A stretch of 64,000 bases of DNA, from assembly GCF_001659685.2 (NCBI RefSeq), contig NZ_LXYE02000001.1:62001-126000 (forward strand), given 5' to 3'. Of this stretch, positions 1 through 62,066 are shown piece by piece. The first letter of the stretch is position 1. Each line of letters begins with the position of its first letter. The stretch comes from Labilibacter marinus (GTDB lineage Bacteria > Bacteroidota > Bacteroidia > Bacteroidales > Marinilabiliaceae). Made by a program: the position numbers and the translations under genes. Below the pieces are notes generated by a model. That model searched no databases, was not told the origin of the DNA, and saw nothing but the letters and a program-made list of their open reading frames with translations.

Positions 1-699
1 GTAGTTGTCTTTGAGTTCCACAGTTCTTTTAAAACCACTGCTGTTCATCTCCAGTGGTTTCAGTACATTATCTCTGATATACGCAAAACATGGCACGCCA
101 GACACCTCTTCAACAATAAGCCCCAATAAAGCATAGCCTTGATTGCTATAGTTAATAATTTGTCCTGAAGGCCTTATTTGCAATGGTTTTTGTTCTTTTA
201 AATACTGAGCTAAAGGAGCGACATCTTTTTCAGCCCGTACTGCCGTGCCTGTAATCAAATTGTCCAAACCCGATGTATGCAATAAAAGCTGCCTTACGGT
301 TATTGAGTCGTTGAATTTGTACTTTAATTGGAAGCTTTTGAGGTAACGATTAACATCCTTATCCAGCTCCAGCTTTCCTTCCTCAATCAATTGCATGGTT
401 GCTGTTGCTACAAATGTTTTTGAAATGGAGCCCACACCAAATATAGAATGGTGAGCATCTACCGCAGTTTTCGATTCAATTTCGCTTACACCATAACCAT
501 TAAGGTGACGAATGGAGTCGTCTTTTATTAATACAATGGTTGCCCCTACAATATTTAAAGAGTCAATACCTTTTGTCAGCTTTGAATCGATCCATGCACT
601 TAAAGCTTCTGTTTGGAGATTTTCAGTTTGAGAATACACTAGGTTTCTATTTAAAAAGAAAGAGCCTAGCATTAAAAATGTAATGATTAAATGTTTCAT
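1..699 (-). CDS. Serine hydrolase, beta-lactamase (class C/PBP-like) family, 3' part cut by window edge
   Basis: The frame is open from ATG at 699 to base 1, giving 233 codons, so the C-terminal part lies outside the window. The first ~23 residues form a signal peptide (MKHLIITFLMLGSFFL), so the product is exported. About residue 92 there is an SxxK motif (GSISKTF) that in this family holds the nucleophilic Ser and general base Lys. Further on, NYSNQGY supplies the YxN motif. The third motif (HxG/KTG) would lie beyond the edge. Related proteins are esterases, D-aminopeptidases or penicillin-binding-like hydrolases; which one cannot be told here, and resistance activity should not be assumed. 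The start is chosen because signal peptide and motifs follow it directly. The leader (700-1050) is exceptional: repeats fold over the start codon. Confidence 0.88.
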   Translation of the reverse strand, partial: MKHLIITFLMLGSFFLNRNLVYSQTENLQTEALSAWIDSKLTKGIDSLNIVGATIVLIKDDSIRHLNGYGVSEIESKTAVDAHHSIFGVGSISKTFVATATMQLIEEGKLELDKDVNRYLKSFQLKYKFNDSITVRQLLLHTSGLDNLITGTAVRAEKDVAPLAQYLKEQKPLQIRPSGQIINYSNQGYALLGLIVEEVSGVPCFAYIRDNVLKPLEMNSSGFKRTVELKDNY

Positions 700-887
700 C
701 TGTTTAAATTTATTTTTCAATGGTCAGATGGAACTCCCAAATAAATTTAATCATCCTCCTGTGTGTAAATTGGATAATCAAATTTGCATGGTCGTTTCAT
801 GTGTTTAAAATTTGATTTTTAATTGCCACATGGAACTCGCCAATTAAAACCTCTTCCTGTGAGAGAATATTGGCTCCTGACTCGTTT
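697..887 (-). repeat. Two imperfect tandem leader repeats, each able to form the same pseudoknot
   Basis: Unit 1 is about 697-797 and unit 2 about 798-887. Shared blocks are TGGAACTC, CTGTG and TCGTTTCATGTG (plus-strand reading). In unit 1 arm CATCTG (697-702) pairs with CAGATG (725-730), and an 11-nt arm (705-715) pairs perfectly with 739-749. In unit 2 CATGTG (798-803) pairs with CACATG (827-832), and TTTTAATTG (817-825) pairs with CAATTAAAA (841-849). In both units the arms interleave, which is H-type pseudoknot topology. Stem sequences differ between units but pairing is kept. On the minus-strand transcript this is the 5' leader of the serine hydrolase gene, and unit 1 pairs its ATG (CAGATG). 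I do not recognise it as a known riboswitch class. Confidence 0.75.
747..800 (-). other. Possible 17-residue leader peptide ORF
   Basis: An ATG in CACATGAAACG, the same context as the hydrolase start CAGATGAAAC, opens a frame reading MKRPCKFDYPIYTQEDD. It ends at a TAA that forms the first bases of the pseudoknot stem over the hydrolase start. AGGAGGAT lies at the end of this ORF, but too far from the hydrolase ATG for a normal ribosome site. It may be a regulatory leader peptide or only a vestige of the tandem duplication. Translation is not shown. Confidence 0.3.
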
Positions 888-890
888 CAT
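819..890 (-). other. Possible 23-residue leader peptide ORF
   Basis: A third CACATGAAACG context opens a frame for a short basic peptide beginning MKRVRSQYSL and ending VPCGN. It runs through one arm of the unit-2 pseudoknot, so ribosomes translating it would open that fold. It is preceded on the transcript by the hairpin at 895-949. As for its neighbour, it could be a leader peptide or a duplicated relic of the gene start. Confidence 0.3.
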
Positions 891-894
891 GTGT

Positions 895-949
895 CTATTT
901 TTCTCTGGTTAATTACTTCTGCCAAAGTATATGAGGCAGAGAGAAATAG
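895..949 (-). promoter_or_regulatory. Hairpin at the head of the structured leader
   Basis: Arms 895-907 and 937-949 pair over 13 bp with one G.U pair, enclosing about 29 nt. It ends two bases before the CACATG of the first leader start. A second, outer pair of 10-nt complementary segments lies at 856-865 and 987-996 and could form an alternative long-range fold. No Rho-independent terminator run of T follows on either strand. Confidence 0.5.
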
Positions 950-1079
950 CAATGTCGAATCCAGTTCTAAACAGGTTGTTTGTCGACTCTCACAGGGTTT
1001 TGATGCGTTTTTAAGCGTAACGCAGAAAATGAAGTTTTCTTGCAGAGACTAATTAACAGATTTTAAAGGCCTATCAATG

Positions 1080-1490
1080 TCAGGAAGAGAGTTGTTTTTT
1101 ATTAATCGCCTTAATGGCAATAAAGCAAAATAGCAACGAAAACGAATAAATAAGTAGTCCATAAATGGTAACAATCATAGAAACGCTTATGCCATCAAAT
1201 ACCAATTCAGGTTCAGGCTTTATTCCACTTTCGGTAATAATTTCACTTTGAAGGAACATTGAATAAAGTCCAAGCATCGAACCGCATATTCCGAATACGA
1301 GCGTAAACAAGCCCATAATTTTCCCATATCCAAGTCTGCGAATTACTTTTTCGCTGCTTACTTTTTTAGAATAATGTGCAAGTACAAAATGATATATTAA
1401 CCAAGCAGTCGTAATTATTAATAAAATGGTTAGCATGACCATAAATTCAATACCTCCCAAGTAAAATAATTCTTTTATCTGTTTAAGCAT
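1080..1490 (-). CDS. Small MotA/TolQ/ExbB proton-channel-like membrane protein
   Basis: The 136-residue product starts MLKQIKELFYLGG and shows three hydrophobic segments: about residues 14-35 (FMVMLTILLIITTAWLIYHF), 56-75 and 100-125. The layout and the G-rich second helix (GICGSMLGLYSMF) match short ExbB/TolQ relatives common in Bacteroidota. An upstream in-frame ATG at 1538 would add 16 polar residues; I prefer 1490 because family members begin with the MLKQ-LGG stretch. No ExbD partner is next to it, and it is divergent from the LytTR gene at 1634, which may control it. Role beyond a membrane channel-type protein is unknown. Confidence 0.72.
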   Translation of the reverse strand: MLKQIKELFYLGGIEFMVMLTILLIITTAWLIYHFVLAHYSKKVSSEKVIRRLGYGKIMGLFTLVFGICGSMLGLYSMFLQSEIITESGIKPEPELVFDGISVSMIVTIYGLLIYSFSLLFCFIAIKAINKKQLSS

Positions 1491-1633
1491 ATCTATATTA
1501 TTGTAATTCTTTAATGAAAAATGCCAAGGTTGAATCAACTTCTTTACGTTTTGCTCATCGATTCTAAACAGTTTTCTTTATAATTGCCCCGAAATTAGAG
1601 CAAAATATTAAACAATGAAACGATAAGGTAAAC

Positions 1634-2431
1634 ATGTTTAAACAGATCAATAAAAAATTTAAAAAAATACATTATCATATCGCTTACTGCATTTTTGTTC
1701 TATTTGTTTTATTATTTGTATTTCGGTCTGCATGGGTTAACCTTAAATTGCTATTTTTCTATATCGGTTTATTCTTGCCCATTGTTTTAGCTACTTCCTA
1801 TTTCTTTAATTATGTAATTGTACCCAACTATTATCTTACCAGAAGGTATGCAAGGTTTATATTTTATACTTTTTGTACAGCCGTTATTTCATGGTATCTC
1901 GAAATATTAGTATTGGTATTTGCCTATGTAACGCTGGCAAAATTTAGTTACATAACTCCAAATTCAGTTCAGGTAGCTCGGGTACCTATAGTCCTGTACA
2001 TGTTAGTTTTTGTAGGATCCTTTTTATTCATGATGAAACAAATCATTGAAAAAGGCCAGGTAATTAATAAACTGGAAATTGAAAAAGAGAAAACTAAAAA
2101 GTCATTTCTTGAAATAATGTCTAATCGTAAGATGATTAAAATTCCTTATGATGAAATTATTTATATCGAAAGTTTATCCGACTACATTAAGGTAACTACA
2201 ATAAATAATGAGATTAAGAGTAAAGAAAAAATAAGCAAACTATCAGAAAAATTACCTGATATTTTTTTAAGAATTCATCGTTCGTTTATTATCAACACCG
2301 ACAGAATTAAAGAACGCTCTTTGGAGCAGGTTTTAGTTGATGGCTATCAATTAAATATTGGTAGAAGCTATAGAAAAGATGTTAAAGAAGTATTGAATTC
2401 CAGAGATACAACAACTACCGCCAATAAATAG
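1634..2431 (+). CDS. Membrane-anchored LytTR-family transcriptional regulator
   Basis: The 265-residue protein has four predicted membrane helices in its first ~145 residues, a short coiled linker (KLEIEKEKTKKSFLEIM), and a C-terminal LytTR DNA-binding domain from about 165 to 258. Recognisable LytTR features are the ISLE-like YIESLSDYIKV, the LPDIFLRIHRSFIIN core and IGRSYRKDV near the end. There is no receiver domain, so the membrane part probably senses the signal directly, as in other Bacteroidota LytTR proteins. It is divergent from the ExbB-like gene ending at 1080, and the ~140-bp spacer could carry both promoters. The target genes are not identified. Confidence 0.88.
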   Translation: MFKQINKKFKKIHYHIAYCIFVLFVLLFVFRSAWVNLKLLFFYIGLFLPIVLATSYFFNYVIVPNYYLTRRYARFIFYTFCTAVISWYLEILVLVFAYVTLAKFSYITPNSVQVARVPIVLYMLVFVGSFLFMMKQIIEKGQVINKLEIEKEKTKKSFLEIMSNRKMIKIPYDEIIYIESLSDYIKVTTINNEIKSKEKISKLSEKLPDIFLRIHRSFIINTDRIKERSLEQVLVDGYQLNIGRSYRKDVKEVLNSRDTTTTANK

Positions 2432-2731: not shown

Positions 2732-3688
2732 TCAAAACTCCTGATAAACAGGAATAACTTCGAGTCCTTTGTCTGTCAATTCTTTTTTAACCTTGCTAAA
2801 TTCGCGGGTAAAGCCCAGTAAGTAACCACCGCCACCCGAGCCACAAAGCTTAAGCAGATAACGATTGTTAGAAATACCATCTTCCCAATGTTTTAAAAAC
2901 TCATCAGGAATCATCTCCTTTAAATATTGCAGTTGAAATTTAGAAAGCTGCTTTAGGCTTTTGTAAAAATTATTTAAATCGCCAGCCAGTAAAGAGCTAA
3001 TGCATTTATTAGTGGTGGGTATTAAATCGTTTTTTATACGTTCTATATAAGTAGGGTTCAAGCATTTTTTCATAAACAAGTCCACCAAGGGAGCTGTTTT
3101 ACCAACCTGCCTGGTGTTCACAATAAAAACGGCATCATCCGATTGTATGTTTTCGCGCGAAATACCTATGGAAGAAATATTCTTTTGGTCCTTGATAAAA
3201 AGCGGATGTTTCAAATAACAAATCAAAGGGTCAATACCTGAGCTTTTACCATGAAAATAGGATTCTAAGCGTGAGAAAATAGATTTTAATTGTTGTGTTT
3301 CTTCACTCGCAAGCCCTGCTTTTGCATGGATGCGCTGTATACCATATTGCTTGTATATAGCGGCTACCAAAGCACCGCTACTACCTAATCCGTATCCCTC
3401 AGGAATGGTCGATTCAAAATATAAACCTTTATCAATATCAGCTAAAAGCTTTTCTGTATCAATAATGTCAGGCGTATTTTCTTTTAAGTAGGTGGCAAAT
3501 TGTTTTAGGTGCTCATTAGAGTGTTTGGCGTAATCTAAATCGGTATATCCCGACGAATTAATAAAACCCAACGAACCGTTAAAGTGAGAGTACGGAATAG
3601 TTAATCCGTTAGAATCAAATAGTATAGAGTACTCTCCAAATAAAAGAACCTTGGAGTAAAAAGTGCTGTTTTTTTTGTTAAAAGACAT
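2732..3688 (-). CDS. mvk: Mevalonate kinase (GHMP kinase)
   Basis: This 318-residue GHMP-superfamily kinase would phosphorylate mevalonate to 5-phosphomevalonate with ATP in the cytoplasm. The N-terminus KVLLFGEYSILFDSNGL is the GHMP opening (GE-Y). The phosphate-binding loop PEGYGLGSSGALVAA lies near residue 96, HGKSSGIDPLICY (about 146-158) supplies the substrate-pocket Asp region, and KLCGSGGGGYLLGF near 280 is the third GHMP motif. It is the last gene of a four-gene minus-strand mevalonate operon, 74 nt after the decarboxylase. Choice of mevalonate rather than another small alcohol rests on the HGKSSGID motif and this context. Confidence 0.88.
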   Translation of the reverse strand: MSFNKKNSTFYSKVLLFGEYSILFDSNGLTIPYSHFNGSLGFINSSGYTDLDYAKHSNEHLKQFATYLKENTPDIIDTEKLLADIDKGLYFESTIPEGYGLGSSGALVAAIYKQYGIQRIHAKAGLASEETQQLKSIFSRLESYFHGKSSGIDPLICYLKHPLFIKDQKNISSIGISRENIQSDDAVFIVNTRQVGKTAPLVDLFMKKCLNPTYIERIKNDLIPTTNKCISSLLAGDLNNFYKSLKQLSKFQLQYLKEMIPDEFLKHWEDGISNNRYLLKLCGSGGGGYLLGFTREFSKVKKELTDKGLEVIPVYQEF

Positions 3689-3762
3689 GCCTTATTTCAT
3701 CTGTTTAAAAATTAACAAAACCCTTATAACTGGTGCAAATTTCAATCAAACTCTTGTGTGAC

Positions 3763-4836
3763 TTAACTTTTTGCTCCGGCCACGCCGGTTTCGTTAGGGC
3801 CAAAACCCAATTCATCATTAATTACCACATTATTGCTGCAGTACTTGGCCAAACTATTTTCAATAAACTCTTCAATTTCCTTTTTGTTCGATAAAGGATA
3901 TAATACATGAATATTTGGCCCCGCATCAATGGTAAAACAGATATTTACGTTTTTTTGTTCTCTAAATTCTCTGATTAGTTGAACAATCTTTAAGGAGTTG
4001 GGATGTAACAAGGTATAACCAGGCGTAGAGCTCATCATTAAACCGTGCAAGCTTAAAGCTTCCGATTCGGTGATTTCTATAAACTTTGCCCAATTGCCTT
4101 TTTTCAATACATCTAGCAAAGCATTGGTATTTTGCTTTGCTTGTTCAATTCTTCCTGCTTGGTACGGATGATTTTTCATTAATTGATGTCCCACAGTACT
4201 GCTAATGCTTTTTTTATCTGAACTCACAATCAGTATCGAGTCCTGAATATTTTTAAAGTCATCATGCACTTGATCGTCTATATTAATGGCGTATTCATCA
4301 TCGCTGTTGGGTAAAGAAGAAGTTCCCCAAGTATTCCATCCACCATAAACAGAACGGCAAGCACTACCTGAACCCAAACGAGCTATGTTTGAAACGGTGT
4401 TTATTCCTAATTCTTCACCCGTAATTTGAAAGTGTACTTTGGCCAAACAAAGCGCTAATGCACTATAGCTACTGGCTGATGAGGCAATGCCCGAAGAATG
4501 TGGAAATGTATTTTCACTATTTATTTGGAGTTTGTACTCGTTTAACCAAGGTAAGGTATCCATTATTCTATCGAAAAATACCTGTAGTTTTTTCTCAAAG
4601 TCAGGATTGTTTTTGCCTTCAAAAGCAAAGCTAAAATCCAGAGTGTTGTTTCCCTTGGTATATTGATAGGCTACCGAAGTATGCGTAACAGCATTTTTAA
4701 GTGTAAAACTAATGGATGGATTTACAGGAATTTGAATGCCTGTTTTACCCCAATATTTTACAATGGCTATGTTAGACGGGCTTTGATAATTAACCTGTCC
4801 GCTTTTACTCAAATATGTTTGCTCTTTGTTATTCAT
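3763..4836 (-). CDS. mvaD: Diphosphomevalonate decarboxylase
   Basis: The 357-residue protein matches the ATP-dependent decarboxylase that makes isopentenyl diphosphate. Diagnostic motifs are SPSNIAIVKYWGKTG near residue 20, the ATP loop HSSGIASSASSYSALAL near 113-129, ARLGSGSACRSVYGGW near 153-168, and FTIDAGPNIHVLYP near 302 carrying the catalytic Asp. Length is slightly above the usual ~320-340. It lies between the two GHMP kinases of the operon. The final GPNETG-AG tail is normal for bacterial members. The family is clear. Confidence 0.93.
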   Translation of the reverse strand: MNNKEQTYLSKSGQVNYQSPSNIAIVKYWGKTGIQIPVNPSISFTLKNAVTHTSVAYQYTKGNNTLDFSFAFEGKNNPDFEKKLQVFFDRIMDTLPWLNEYKLQINSENTFPHSSGIASSASSYSALALCLAKVHFQITGEELGINTVSNIARLGSGSACRSVYGGWNTWGTSSLPNSDDEYAINIDDQVHDDFKNIQDSILIVSSDKKSISSTVGHQLMKNHPYQAGRIEQAKQNTNALLDVLKKGNWAKFIEITESEALSLHGLMMSSTPGYTLLHPNSLKIVQLIREFREQKNVNICFTIDAGPNIHVLYPLSNKKEIEEFIENSLAKYCSNNVVINDELGFGPNETGVAGAKS

Positions 4837-4869
4837 TTATTCATAAACTACACGAGCTAAGGGATTTGT

Positions 4870-5820
4870 TTAACATTCCATACAAGGGTTGTTGAGTACC
4901 AAATTATCATAGTCAAAAATCACTTTTAAATCTTTGCCATGAAAGTAGTTTAGCACATACTCTTTGGGTTGACTTGTTACTGCCATCACAAAATCTCCGC
5001 CCCAAGCTCCTAATGATTTGATAGAACCATCAAAGTCGCTAAAATGTTCTTGTTTTACGGTCTTTTTTCCAATCACTCGGCCAACAATATCTTCGTGTTC
5101 GTTAATGAGTTCCTGAAACTCAGCAATATCATTACAAACTGTTAGGTAAGTAGAGATCGCACTTATTCTATTTATATCTTCTTTATCTACCTTCTTTTTA
5201 TGAAAACCTCTAATGGCGGACTTCGAGCTTTGTTTGTTTCCTCTATATATAAAGTAAATATTTTCCTTAAACTTAGGGTCAAAGTTGATTTCTACGCTGC
5301 GAGGTTTGTCATTAATTAAAAGGAAAAAAATAGGCATTTGGTGTGATGCATTGGCAATATCGTATCCCGATCCTTTAAAAGTCTCTTGTAAAAGTTGGTA
5401 GGGGTCTATCTCTAAATATCGTGCTAAATTGTATACTAAAGTAGAGCTGCTTCCTAATCCCCATTCAGGTAAAAACTCTAAATGCGTAATTATCTTTTTA
5501 CCCATCAGGTCTTTAATATTCAGCTTGCTGTGTTTTATACCTGCACGTACAATTTTTTGTAACTGTTTAGCAAAACCTTCGTCCGAACAGCTGGTAATAG
5601 TTAATCTATCATTAAAAATAACGGAGTTCCAGTTGCCTTCAATATGTGTGGCTTCCCACGTTAAATGATTATTGTTGGATTCAAATACTTCAAAACTCTG
5701 TCCAATTTTTAAGGGTACTGATAAAGCTTTTGCTCCTTTTAAAACCAGGTATTCACCCGAAATCATCAGTTTTCCGTTTCCTCTTGAAGAAAAAACAGGG
5801 ACTTGCTCTTGTTTTTGCAT
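4870..5820 (-). CDS. GYDIA-family GHMP kinase, probable phosphomevalonate kinase
   Basis: The 316-residue GHMP kinase carries GNGKLMISGEYLVLKGAKAL at the N-terminus, the ATP loop EWGLGSSSTLVYNL near residue 127, and GSGYDIANA near 151, the signature that names the Bacteroidota GYDIA family. LGAWGGDFVMA near 270 is the C-terminal GHMP motif. It sits between HMG-CoA reductase and diphosphomevalonate decarboxylase, and the phosphomevalonate kinase step is otherwise missing from this operon, so that is the inferred activity. The enzyme is far from classical phosphomevalonate kinases, and the substrate is not proven by sequence. Gaps to its neighbours are 33 and 56 nt. Confidence 0.85.
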   Translation of the reverse strand: MQKQEQVPVFSSRGNGKLMISGEYLVLKGAKALSVPLKIGQSFEVFESNNNHLTWEATHIEGNWNSVIFNDRLTITSCSDEGFAKQLQKIVRAGIKHSKLNIKDLMGKKIITHLEFLPEWGLGSSSTLVYNLARYLEIDPYQLLQETFKGSGYDIANASHQMPIFFLLINDKPRSVEINFDPKFKENIYFIYRGNKQSSKSAIRGFHKKKVDKEDINRISAISTYLTVCNDIAEFQELINEHEDIVGRVIGKKTVKQEHFSDFDGSIKSLGAWGGDFVMAVTSQPKEYVLNYFHGKDLKVIFDYDNLVLNNPCMEC

Positions 5821-61951: not shown

Positions 61952-62066
61952 CTCATTTATTGTTACTAATAATTAATTGATGGATTCAGATTTATTAGTA
62001 TCGCTTGTTAGTTGTTTGATGCTCAAAAATACAAAAGGTTTAATGCTGAGCTGATATTATTTTACA

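Follow-up and report, generated by a model that had tools for sequence, protein, structure and literature searches.

Two adjoining units on the minus strand, in front of a serine hydrolase gene of Labilibacter marinus, are very probably copies of a non-autonomous, structured mobile element of approximately 90-101 nt that inserts behind start codons. They lie at positions 697-887 of the window, that is, the whole stretch of 64,000 nucleotides analysed (positions 62,001 to 126,000 of contig NZ_LXYE02000001.1). Comparison of copies, orthologous loci and genomes establishes the dispersal of the element, its presence or absence at orthologous genes, a repeat site carrying zero, one or two elements, the ATG supplied anew on insertion and the covariation of three pairings, here called S2, S0 and S3. 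The starting point was the proposal of a duplicated leader whose interleaved stems form a pseudoknot and hide a start codon; that observation is real and part of something much larger, and it was misread in one of the two stems.

Layout of the array

Read along the minus strand, the region comprises a promoter-like box, an ATG (890-888), a 90-nt unit (887-798), a 101-nt unit (797-697) and the hydrolase gene (1-699, continuing beyond the window; serine hydrolase/beta-lactamase fold, PF00144, E 1.8e-41), so that the two related units announced by the original prediction are indeed present. Copy 1 (798-887) belongs to the short class, ends with its own ATG at 798-800 and is matched by the covariance model described below at G000:C1:62791-62896 (G000 being the genome of the window; E 5.8e-14). 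Copy 2 (697-797) belongs to the long class, scores 126.6 bits with the same model and has close relatives elsewhere in the genome, on G000:C17 and G000:C27. An ATG terminates both units, and that of copy 2 (697-699) would now serve as start codon of the hydrolase gene, the second codon of which is AAA. The ATG at 888-890, directly 5' of the left end AAACGA of copy 1, would be the ancestral start codon by analogy with an unfilled repeat and with orthologues of other genes discussed below; no element-free orthologue of the hydrolase gene itself was found. The array was not flagged by Tandem Repeats Finder.

The leader had been drawn as far as 949, which is too long: 888-890 is the putative ancestral start, and 895-949 holds a separate inverted repeat (CTATTTTTCTCTG/CAGAGAGAAATAG, 92%) outside the element and around the promoter-like box. 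The latter, TACTTTGG at 922-929 on the minus strand, resembles what we take to be the -7 consensus, TAnnTTTG, and, judged from its letters, it may be part of a native promoter upstream of the left ATG.

Anatomy and covariation of the element

Each unit consists, in this order, of the left end AAACGA, a hairpin, the motif GAGTTC, a guide CATNTG, an A/T-rich spacer and the right end CANATG, with two main length classes of approximately 90 and 101 nt. GAGTTC is conserved in both window units, as had been noted (731-736 in copy 2, 833-838 in copy 1). The short stem of the prediction corresponds to S2, the pairing of the guide with the right end: in copy 2, CATCTG at 725-730 pairs with CAGATG at 697-702, which contains the start codon, and in copy 1, CATGTG at 827-832 pairs with CACATG at 798-803, all on the minus strand. 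The ATG had been placed in this stem in the last unit, which is correct for that unit but holds for the other as well: the 3' arm contains an ATG in both, each unit ending in one.

In 6.6% of shuffles the last six bases of one copy find a perfect 6-bp partner, so the two units alone prove little, and it is the family that proves the short stem. A set of 70 non-redundant copies was assembled, 51 from loci of the same genome, genus and family and 19 more, mostly from other families, obtained from the 29 of 40 loci where extraction worked. S2 is perfect in 58 of the 70 copies as compared with 23.3 on permutation (maximum of 35 in 2000 permutations), and takes the forms CATCTG/CAGATG, CATGTG/CACATG, CATATG/CATATG, CATCCG/CGGATG, CATACG/CGTATG and CATGCG/CGCATG, so that the covariation includes the start codon. 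Extraction demanded ATGA and a GTTCCAT-like guide, copies with a right arm starting with GCC were discarded as mis-called, and where several ATGs were candidates the one that paired best was retained; before this last choice S2 was perfect in 89 of 120 copies versus 38.7 permuted. The sampling is biased toward the motif, since the model seeds and the extraction demanded parts of it. In 12 loci of the most distant genomes GAGTTC is mostly changed and S2 is perfect in 9.

The inner hairpin, S0, exceeds permutation over all copies (z 10.5) and within the long class (z 9.9), while short-class copies show no excess over chance (z 1.3); its wobble pairs, considered as a guide to the strand that folds, number 22 G-T versus 4 A-C, a preference for G-T that permuted pairs share. 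In copy 2 its 5' arm (772-785) forms 14 bp with its 3' arm (743-756) in the minimum-energy fold of the minus strand. The closing stem S3, predicted around a GA/GA mismatch between AAC-GA-CCA (789-796) and TGG-GA-GTT (732-739) of copy 2, reaches z 7.4 by permutation with three variable pairs, and would account for the conserved GAGTTC.

The long stem proposed to interleave with S2 fares differently. The pairings can be formed as written (701-715/739-753, 93%; TTTTAATTG/CAATTAAAA in the other unit), but they hardly exceed chance when real upstream arms are compared with the spacers of other copies within length classes (z 2.1 in the long class, n=31; z 1.5 in the short class, n=39). With both classes pooled, z rises to 3.6, above all 300 permutations, an excess put down to the difference between the length classes. 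The interleaved pseudoknot is unsupported, since long-stem arms swapped between copies score almost as well, and the H-type pseudoknot leader was rejected: S2 covaries, whereas the interleaved stem hardly does so within classes. In the 101-nt unit the bases of the long stem pair upstream instead, in the 14-bp hairpin 785-772/756-743 preferred by the energy model (z -3.3, with 0 of 200 shuffles equally stable), the 3' arm of which overlaps the long-stem arm originally placed at 739-749. The predicted fold of this unit, when nothing is forced, consists of S3 and S0 followed by S2, and the supported folds are the upstream hairpin (S3 with S0) and S2. Under the energy model the probability of S2 averages 0.50 over 51 copies, the value for copy 1 of the window being 0.00.

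Dispersal and copy number

In the genome of the window, a blastn search with positions 690-1000 gave 44 matches at E<=10 and 27 at E<0.01, self included, 2 of the 27 covering only the upstream stretch. A covariance model was built from 24 copies of this genome, its seeds being required to show at least 5 of the 6 S2 pairs and its structure being limited to those six pairs. With it the genome yields 52 matches at E<=1 and 39 at E<0.01, 2 of the latter antisense to stronger ones. A congener (G004) has at least 150 matches (150 of 150 scored candidates). Matches were found in 30 of 41 genomes of relatives at E<=0.1, the genome of the window counted, in 102 of 295 genomes of the order at E<=1e-4 with 12 candidates scored per genome, and in 24 of 395 genomes of a phylum sample with 9 candidates scored per genome. 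Three of 13 named genomes, which were reached through earlier loci, also match, namely Flavobacteriaceae bacterium R38 and two MAGs, one of Balneolales and one of Roseivirga. Forty-five loci with relatives of the hydrolase, none of them from a congener, served only as a route to named genomes. The original prediction was to be judged by a covariance-model search for relatives and by the state of their stems; homologues proved numerous across the order and thinly spread in the phylum, and the short stem is conserved in them. One copy and two exact patterns, used as queries against plasmids, phages and viral contigs, gave no match, records close to the genome of the window being perhaps absent from these collections.

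Several individual loci deserve mention. A nearly identical long-class element is found in genomes of three families (L359, L360 and L388 in G274, L375 in G141, L181 in G004), which suggests either horizontal transfer or strong constraint on the sequence. At least six same-strand copies occur within approximately 5.4 kb at L264 (G004:C3:2724500-2733500), two of them identical including their near flanks. A shrunken copy of approximately 65 nt at L343:4300-4364, from which most of the hairpin is gone, keeps a CATGCA/CGCATG pairing and lies at a gene start. Larger versions with the same ends and an internal gene were also considered, and the candidates at L343 and L344, matches of half length, proved to be shrunken copies. 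GC-rich palindromic pieces are nested in the element hairpins at L097, L297, L300, L304 and L308 (for instance CTGCCTGCCATCAGGCA in L097) and have the look of insertions of other repeats into the element.

Host genes, target site and direction of the event

The element is dispersed in front of unrelated genes, and the description of a leader of the serine hydrolase does not hold. The downstream families include CoA transferase, biotin carboxylase, Usp, flavodoxin-like and MacB-like proteins, among others; 7 of 10 downstream pieces matched a family at E<=0.001, 1 of the 7 scoring under the cut-off of its family. In the set of 70 copies the right-end ATG opens an open reading frame of at least 60 amino acids in 52, and 12 of the remaining 18 run into another unit, while an upstream in-frame reading frame of 60 codons before the left triplet occurs in none (the longest has 56). 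A second codon starting with AA is seen in all 32 distant copies and, within the set of 70, in 68 of 69, as compared with 14 of 46 long reading frames of the window, the first A being demanded by the extraction in the larger set; before mis-called ends were dropped the count was 106 of 120. The triplet to the left of the element is ATG in 26 of the 32 distant copies, in which it was unrestricted. From the left ATG short reading frames of 4-33 codons run, 48 of 51 with a stop within the stretch read and 3 of 51 open. A conserved peptide from this frame (MKRAM..SHTGE, MKRPCKF..) was considered; the lengths scatter and no conserved product is claimed. Division of the element lengths by three leaves remainders of 0, 2 and 1 in 63, 37 and 20 of 120 copies, some with mis-called ends.

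The exact unfilled site is known from one repeat type only, a 157-nt repeat of G004 (for example at L184 and L313-L342) with inverted ends TAGT.GCTGCAAGAAAA ... GTTTTCTTGCAA.GACTA and at least 40 unfilled copies. In each of 40 scored places the repeat continues across the junction without a break, and in all 26 readable repeat ends, from 30 loci, the unfilled junction reads GATAAG↓AAAGC or a one-base variant (the arrow marks the insertion point). At 12 other loci of G004 the repeat is filled, with AAACGA... directly after GATAAG: in 10 a single element ends CATATG↓AAAGC, and in 2 (L187 and L195) the CATATG of a first element is followed by a second element ending CATATG↓AAAGC. From the occurrence of zero, one and two elements at the same repeat site it follows that the element brings the final ATG with it and that the left triplet is part of the target. 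Both junctions share GAAA at the unfilled site, and up to 4 nt could be duplicated. The filled copies of the repeat may descend from one event and have spread thereafter with that repeat.

Orthologous genes give a similar picture. By eye, the element present at the carboxylase gene of G000 is found in 0 of 8 congeners, that at the gene of locus L097 in 1 of 7 other loci from 6 genomes, and that at the Usp gene in 3 of 6 others; at the CoA-transferase and amidohydrolase genes the element of G000 is absent from 3 and 1 other loci, respectively, some of which are perhaps paralogues. The left flank of the L097 element resembles the region upstream of element-free orthologues in 2 of 7 cases (scores 59 and 44 against shuffled maxima of 40 and 37), the remaining 5 of 7 not rising above shuffles. 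The aligned blocks stop 19 and 16 nt short of the left ATG and, in the orthologues, 21 and 26 nt short of their ATG, so that the left ATG occupies the expected place of the old start codon. By taking into account both the repeat and the orthologues, insertion at ATG↓AA with a new start codon supplied by the element would be the simplest reading.

Proposed mechanism and alternatives

According to the proposed mechanism, the element would insert immediately after the start codon, in genes with AA as the first two bases of the second codon. The old ATG would come to head a short reading frame, usually stopping inside the element, and the terminal ATG of the element would become the start codon, used as such by the ribosome, leaving the gene product unchanged. 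Each insertion recreates ATG↓AA, hence elements can stack in tandem. The element would move as a folded single strand, with the S3/S0 hairpin as recognition structure, S2, formed by the internal guide and the right end, placing the right-hand cut, and an enzyme acting in trans. The near-confinement of the sampled copies to start codons, as opposed to other ATGAA sites, is left unexplained by this mechanism.

With respect to S2, a role in mobility is favoured, control of translation is the doubtful alternative, and a role in both or in neither appears less likely still. The pairing decays along with the score of non-identical model matches: it is perfect in 74 of 82 at 80 bits or more, in 3 of 7 at 60-80 bits and in 1 of 10 at 40-60 bits, the bit score itself depending partly on S2. 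GAGTTC decays in step (75 of 82, 3 of 7 and 4 of 10), and of the 10 matches in the range of 40-60 bits 9 retain the right-end ATG while the guide drifts. Below 40 bits there are 8 matches, six of them antisense, and the two sense ones retain 6 and 1 of the 6 S2 pairs. The loss of S2 from degenerate copies is an indication in favour of a pairing needed while the element is mobile, over one kept up by the host gene.

That the copies are instead a cis-regulatory RNA family, a riboswitch-like or translational switch in which S2 masks the start codon and which spread passively by duplication, is improbable. S2 does include the start codon and covaries, the sampled copies lie mostly at gene starts, and the predicted probability that the ATG is unpaired averages 0.24 over 51 copies as compared with 0.40 with a swapped guide, from which it is possible that S2 lowers the accessibility of the start codon with an effect on translation. 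However, the downstream genes are unrelated, copies also sit inside a mostly unfilled repeat and not at a recognised gene, several orthologues lack the element, at least 150 copies occur in one genome, S2 is mostly lost in low-scoring copies, and a leader would not need a near-constant AA second codon. The original statement that no known riboswitch class is recognisable agrees with Rfam scans of window positions 1-2000 and 10 other loci, which gave no match at the gathering score and nothing relevant to a riboswitch or another known RNA family. As to chance pairing in A/T-rich sequence at a local duplication, the frequency of the shuffled 6-bp partner quoted above and the nearly chance-like behaviour of the long stem within classes would be compatible with it, but S2, S0 and S3 covary far beyond permutation in the 70 non-redundant copies and the family is order-wide, so that this explanation is refuted for S2, S3 and the long-class S0 and, as a whole, can practically be set aside.

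It is unlikely, though less so than a regulatory RNA, that the element is of the REP type and moved by a RAYT Y1 transposase, for example of the Bacteroidetes subclass 2.6, for which atypical flanking structures are described in PMC6006769. A hairpin with an internal guide pairing with the element end resembles the logic of IS200/IS605 and REP as outlined in PMC8266576 and PMC6006769, which makes Y1 transposases the first candidates to consider; Y1 genes of the YIHxNP type do occur in these genomes, element matches lie near two Y1 genes (L254 and L418), and weak matches (best 21.3 bits) are seen at some YIHxNP loci. Against this, significant matches were obtained at only 2 of 50 Y1 loci, the same L254 and L418, and are not arranged as the repeats of the Y1 gene itself: at L254 they lie on both sides of it, 0.7-1.5 kb off, two of them where other genes start, and at L418 they are confined to one side. 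A cognate Y1 transposase gene flanked by the element was found at none of these 50 loci, a subset of the Y1 genes found. Furthermore, the near-complete genomes G014 and G023 gave no Y1 hit, yet 33 and 30 element matches, whereas G010, G012 and G017 gave Y1 hits and no element match; the element shows no GTAG-like foot, and its guide is 3' of the hairpin and not 5'. The six YIHxNP loci read are surrounded, as judged by eye, by different palindromes. Genes of this type are located at L253, L256, L257, L259, L427, L435, L437 and L438, and those read adjoin other palindrome families; such loci are probably REP systems of their own.

Relation to known systems and significance

Like REP sequences and REPINs with their TnpA-REP (RAYT) transposase, as presented in PMC8266576 and PMC3733652, the element is short, palindromic, non-autonomous and present in high copy number. 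It differs in being 90-101 nt long instead of the 20-50 nt of REP, in having no GTAG or CGTC foot in the conserved alignment columns or the listed copies (by eye), in stacking head-to-tail, in inserting behind start codons and in that no cognate transposase was found. With IS200/IS605, in the account of PMC8266576, it shares a subterminal hairpin and an internal guide paired with an end of the element, but here the guide, of six bases, follows the hairpin on its 3' side, there is no transposase gene, and the end is an ATG that would become a start codon. The guide-end pairing is a single one, on the 3' side, and on inspection the variable base of the left flank does not follow the guide. Rickettsia palindromic elements (RPE), which PMC10969869 treats as small palindromic elements tolerated at genes, lie in frame within coding sequence, whereas the present element lies upstream of a resupplied start, which should leave the protein unchanged; in-frame translation of the RPE type is not seen, with lengths that are not all multiples of three and the stops after the left ATG counted above. 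MITEs (PMC10969869), BOX and RUP are likewise miniature non-autonomous repeats, and the element has the MITE traits of short length, high copy number and no coding capacity for a transposase; its ends, AAACGA and CANATG, are not mutual inverted repeats, in contrast to these, and its target is a start codon. The element is best filed as a small non-autonomous mobile repeat with a target and a harm-avoidance strategy unmatched in the literature searched. No description of it was found there, four element strings included among the queries, and one may be in print elsewhere.

Introns and inteins spare the genes that they enter by being removed, and in-frame palindromes do so by being translated. 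Replacement of the start codon would be another solution to harm avoidance, besides the in-frame palindrome exemplified by the RPE (PMC10969869), and would explain why the element is tolerated at so many genes. If this is true, the start sites and 5' untranslated regions of many genes consist of mobile-element sequence with an upstream reading frame per insertion, and some genomes may have at least 100 genes read from element-supplied starts behind such a short frame, with a bearing on start-site annotation and on translation control in Bacteroidia, the ribosomes of which are said to ignore Shine-Dalgarno sequences (PMC9976891). The arguments for and against a new class of mobile elements, defined by start-codon replacement at ATG↓AA, a guide paired with the element's own ATG end and an enzyme other than Y1, with translation rewired, are evenly balanced in our judgement, and its rank as a class of its own hinges on the enzyme. 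Both the target rule and the enzyme can be tested directly by means of the unfilled sites and the covarying guide.

Other features around the array

Positions 897-990 of the window are 73% identical to G000:C56:45146-45239, a stretch itself located 5' of an apparent second MotA/ExbB-like gene; the MotA/ExbB-like gene of the window occupies 1080-1538. Just upstream of the array, at 1031-1050, lies an end (GTTTTCTTGCAGAGACTAA) that appears, by eye, to be related to the 157-nt repeat of G004. Further along, at 2732-5820, three adjoining minus-strand open reading frames resemble, also by eye, the kinases and decarboxylase of the mevalonate pathway.
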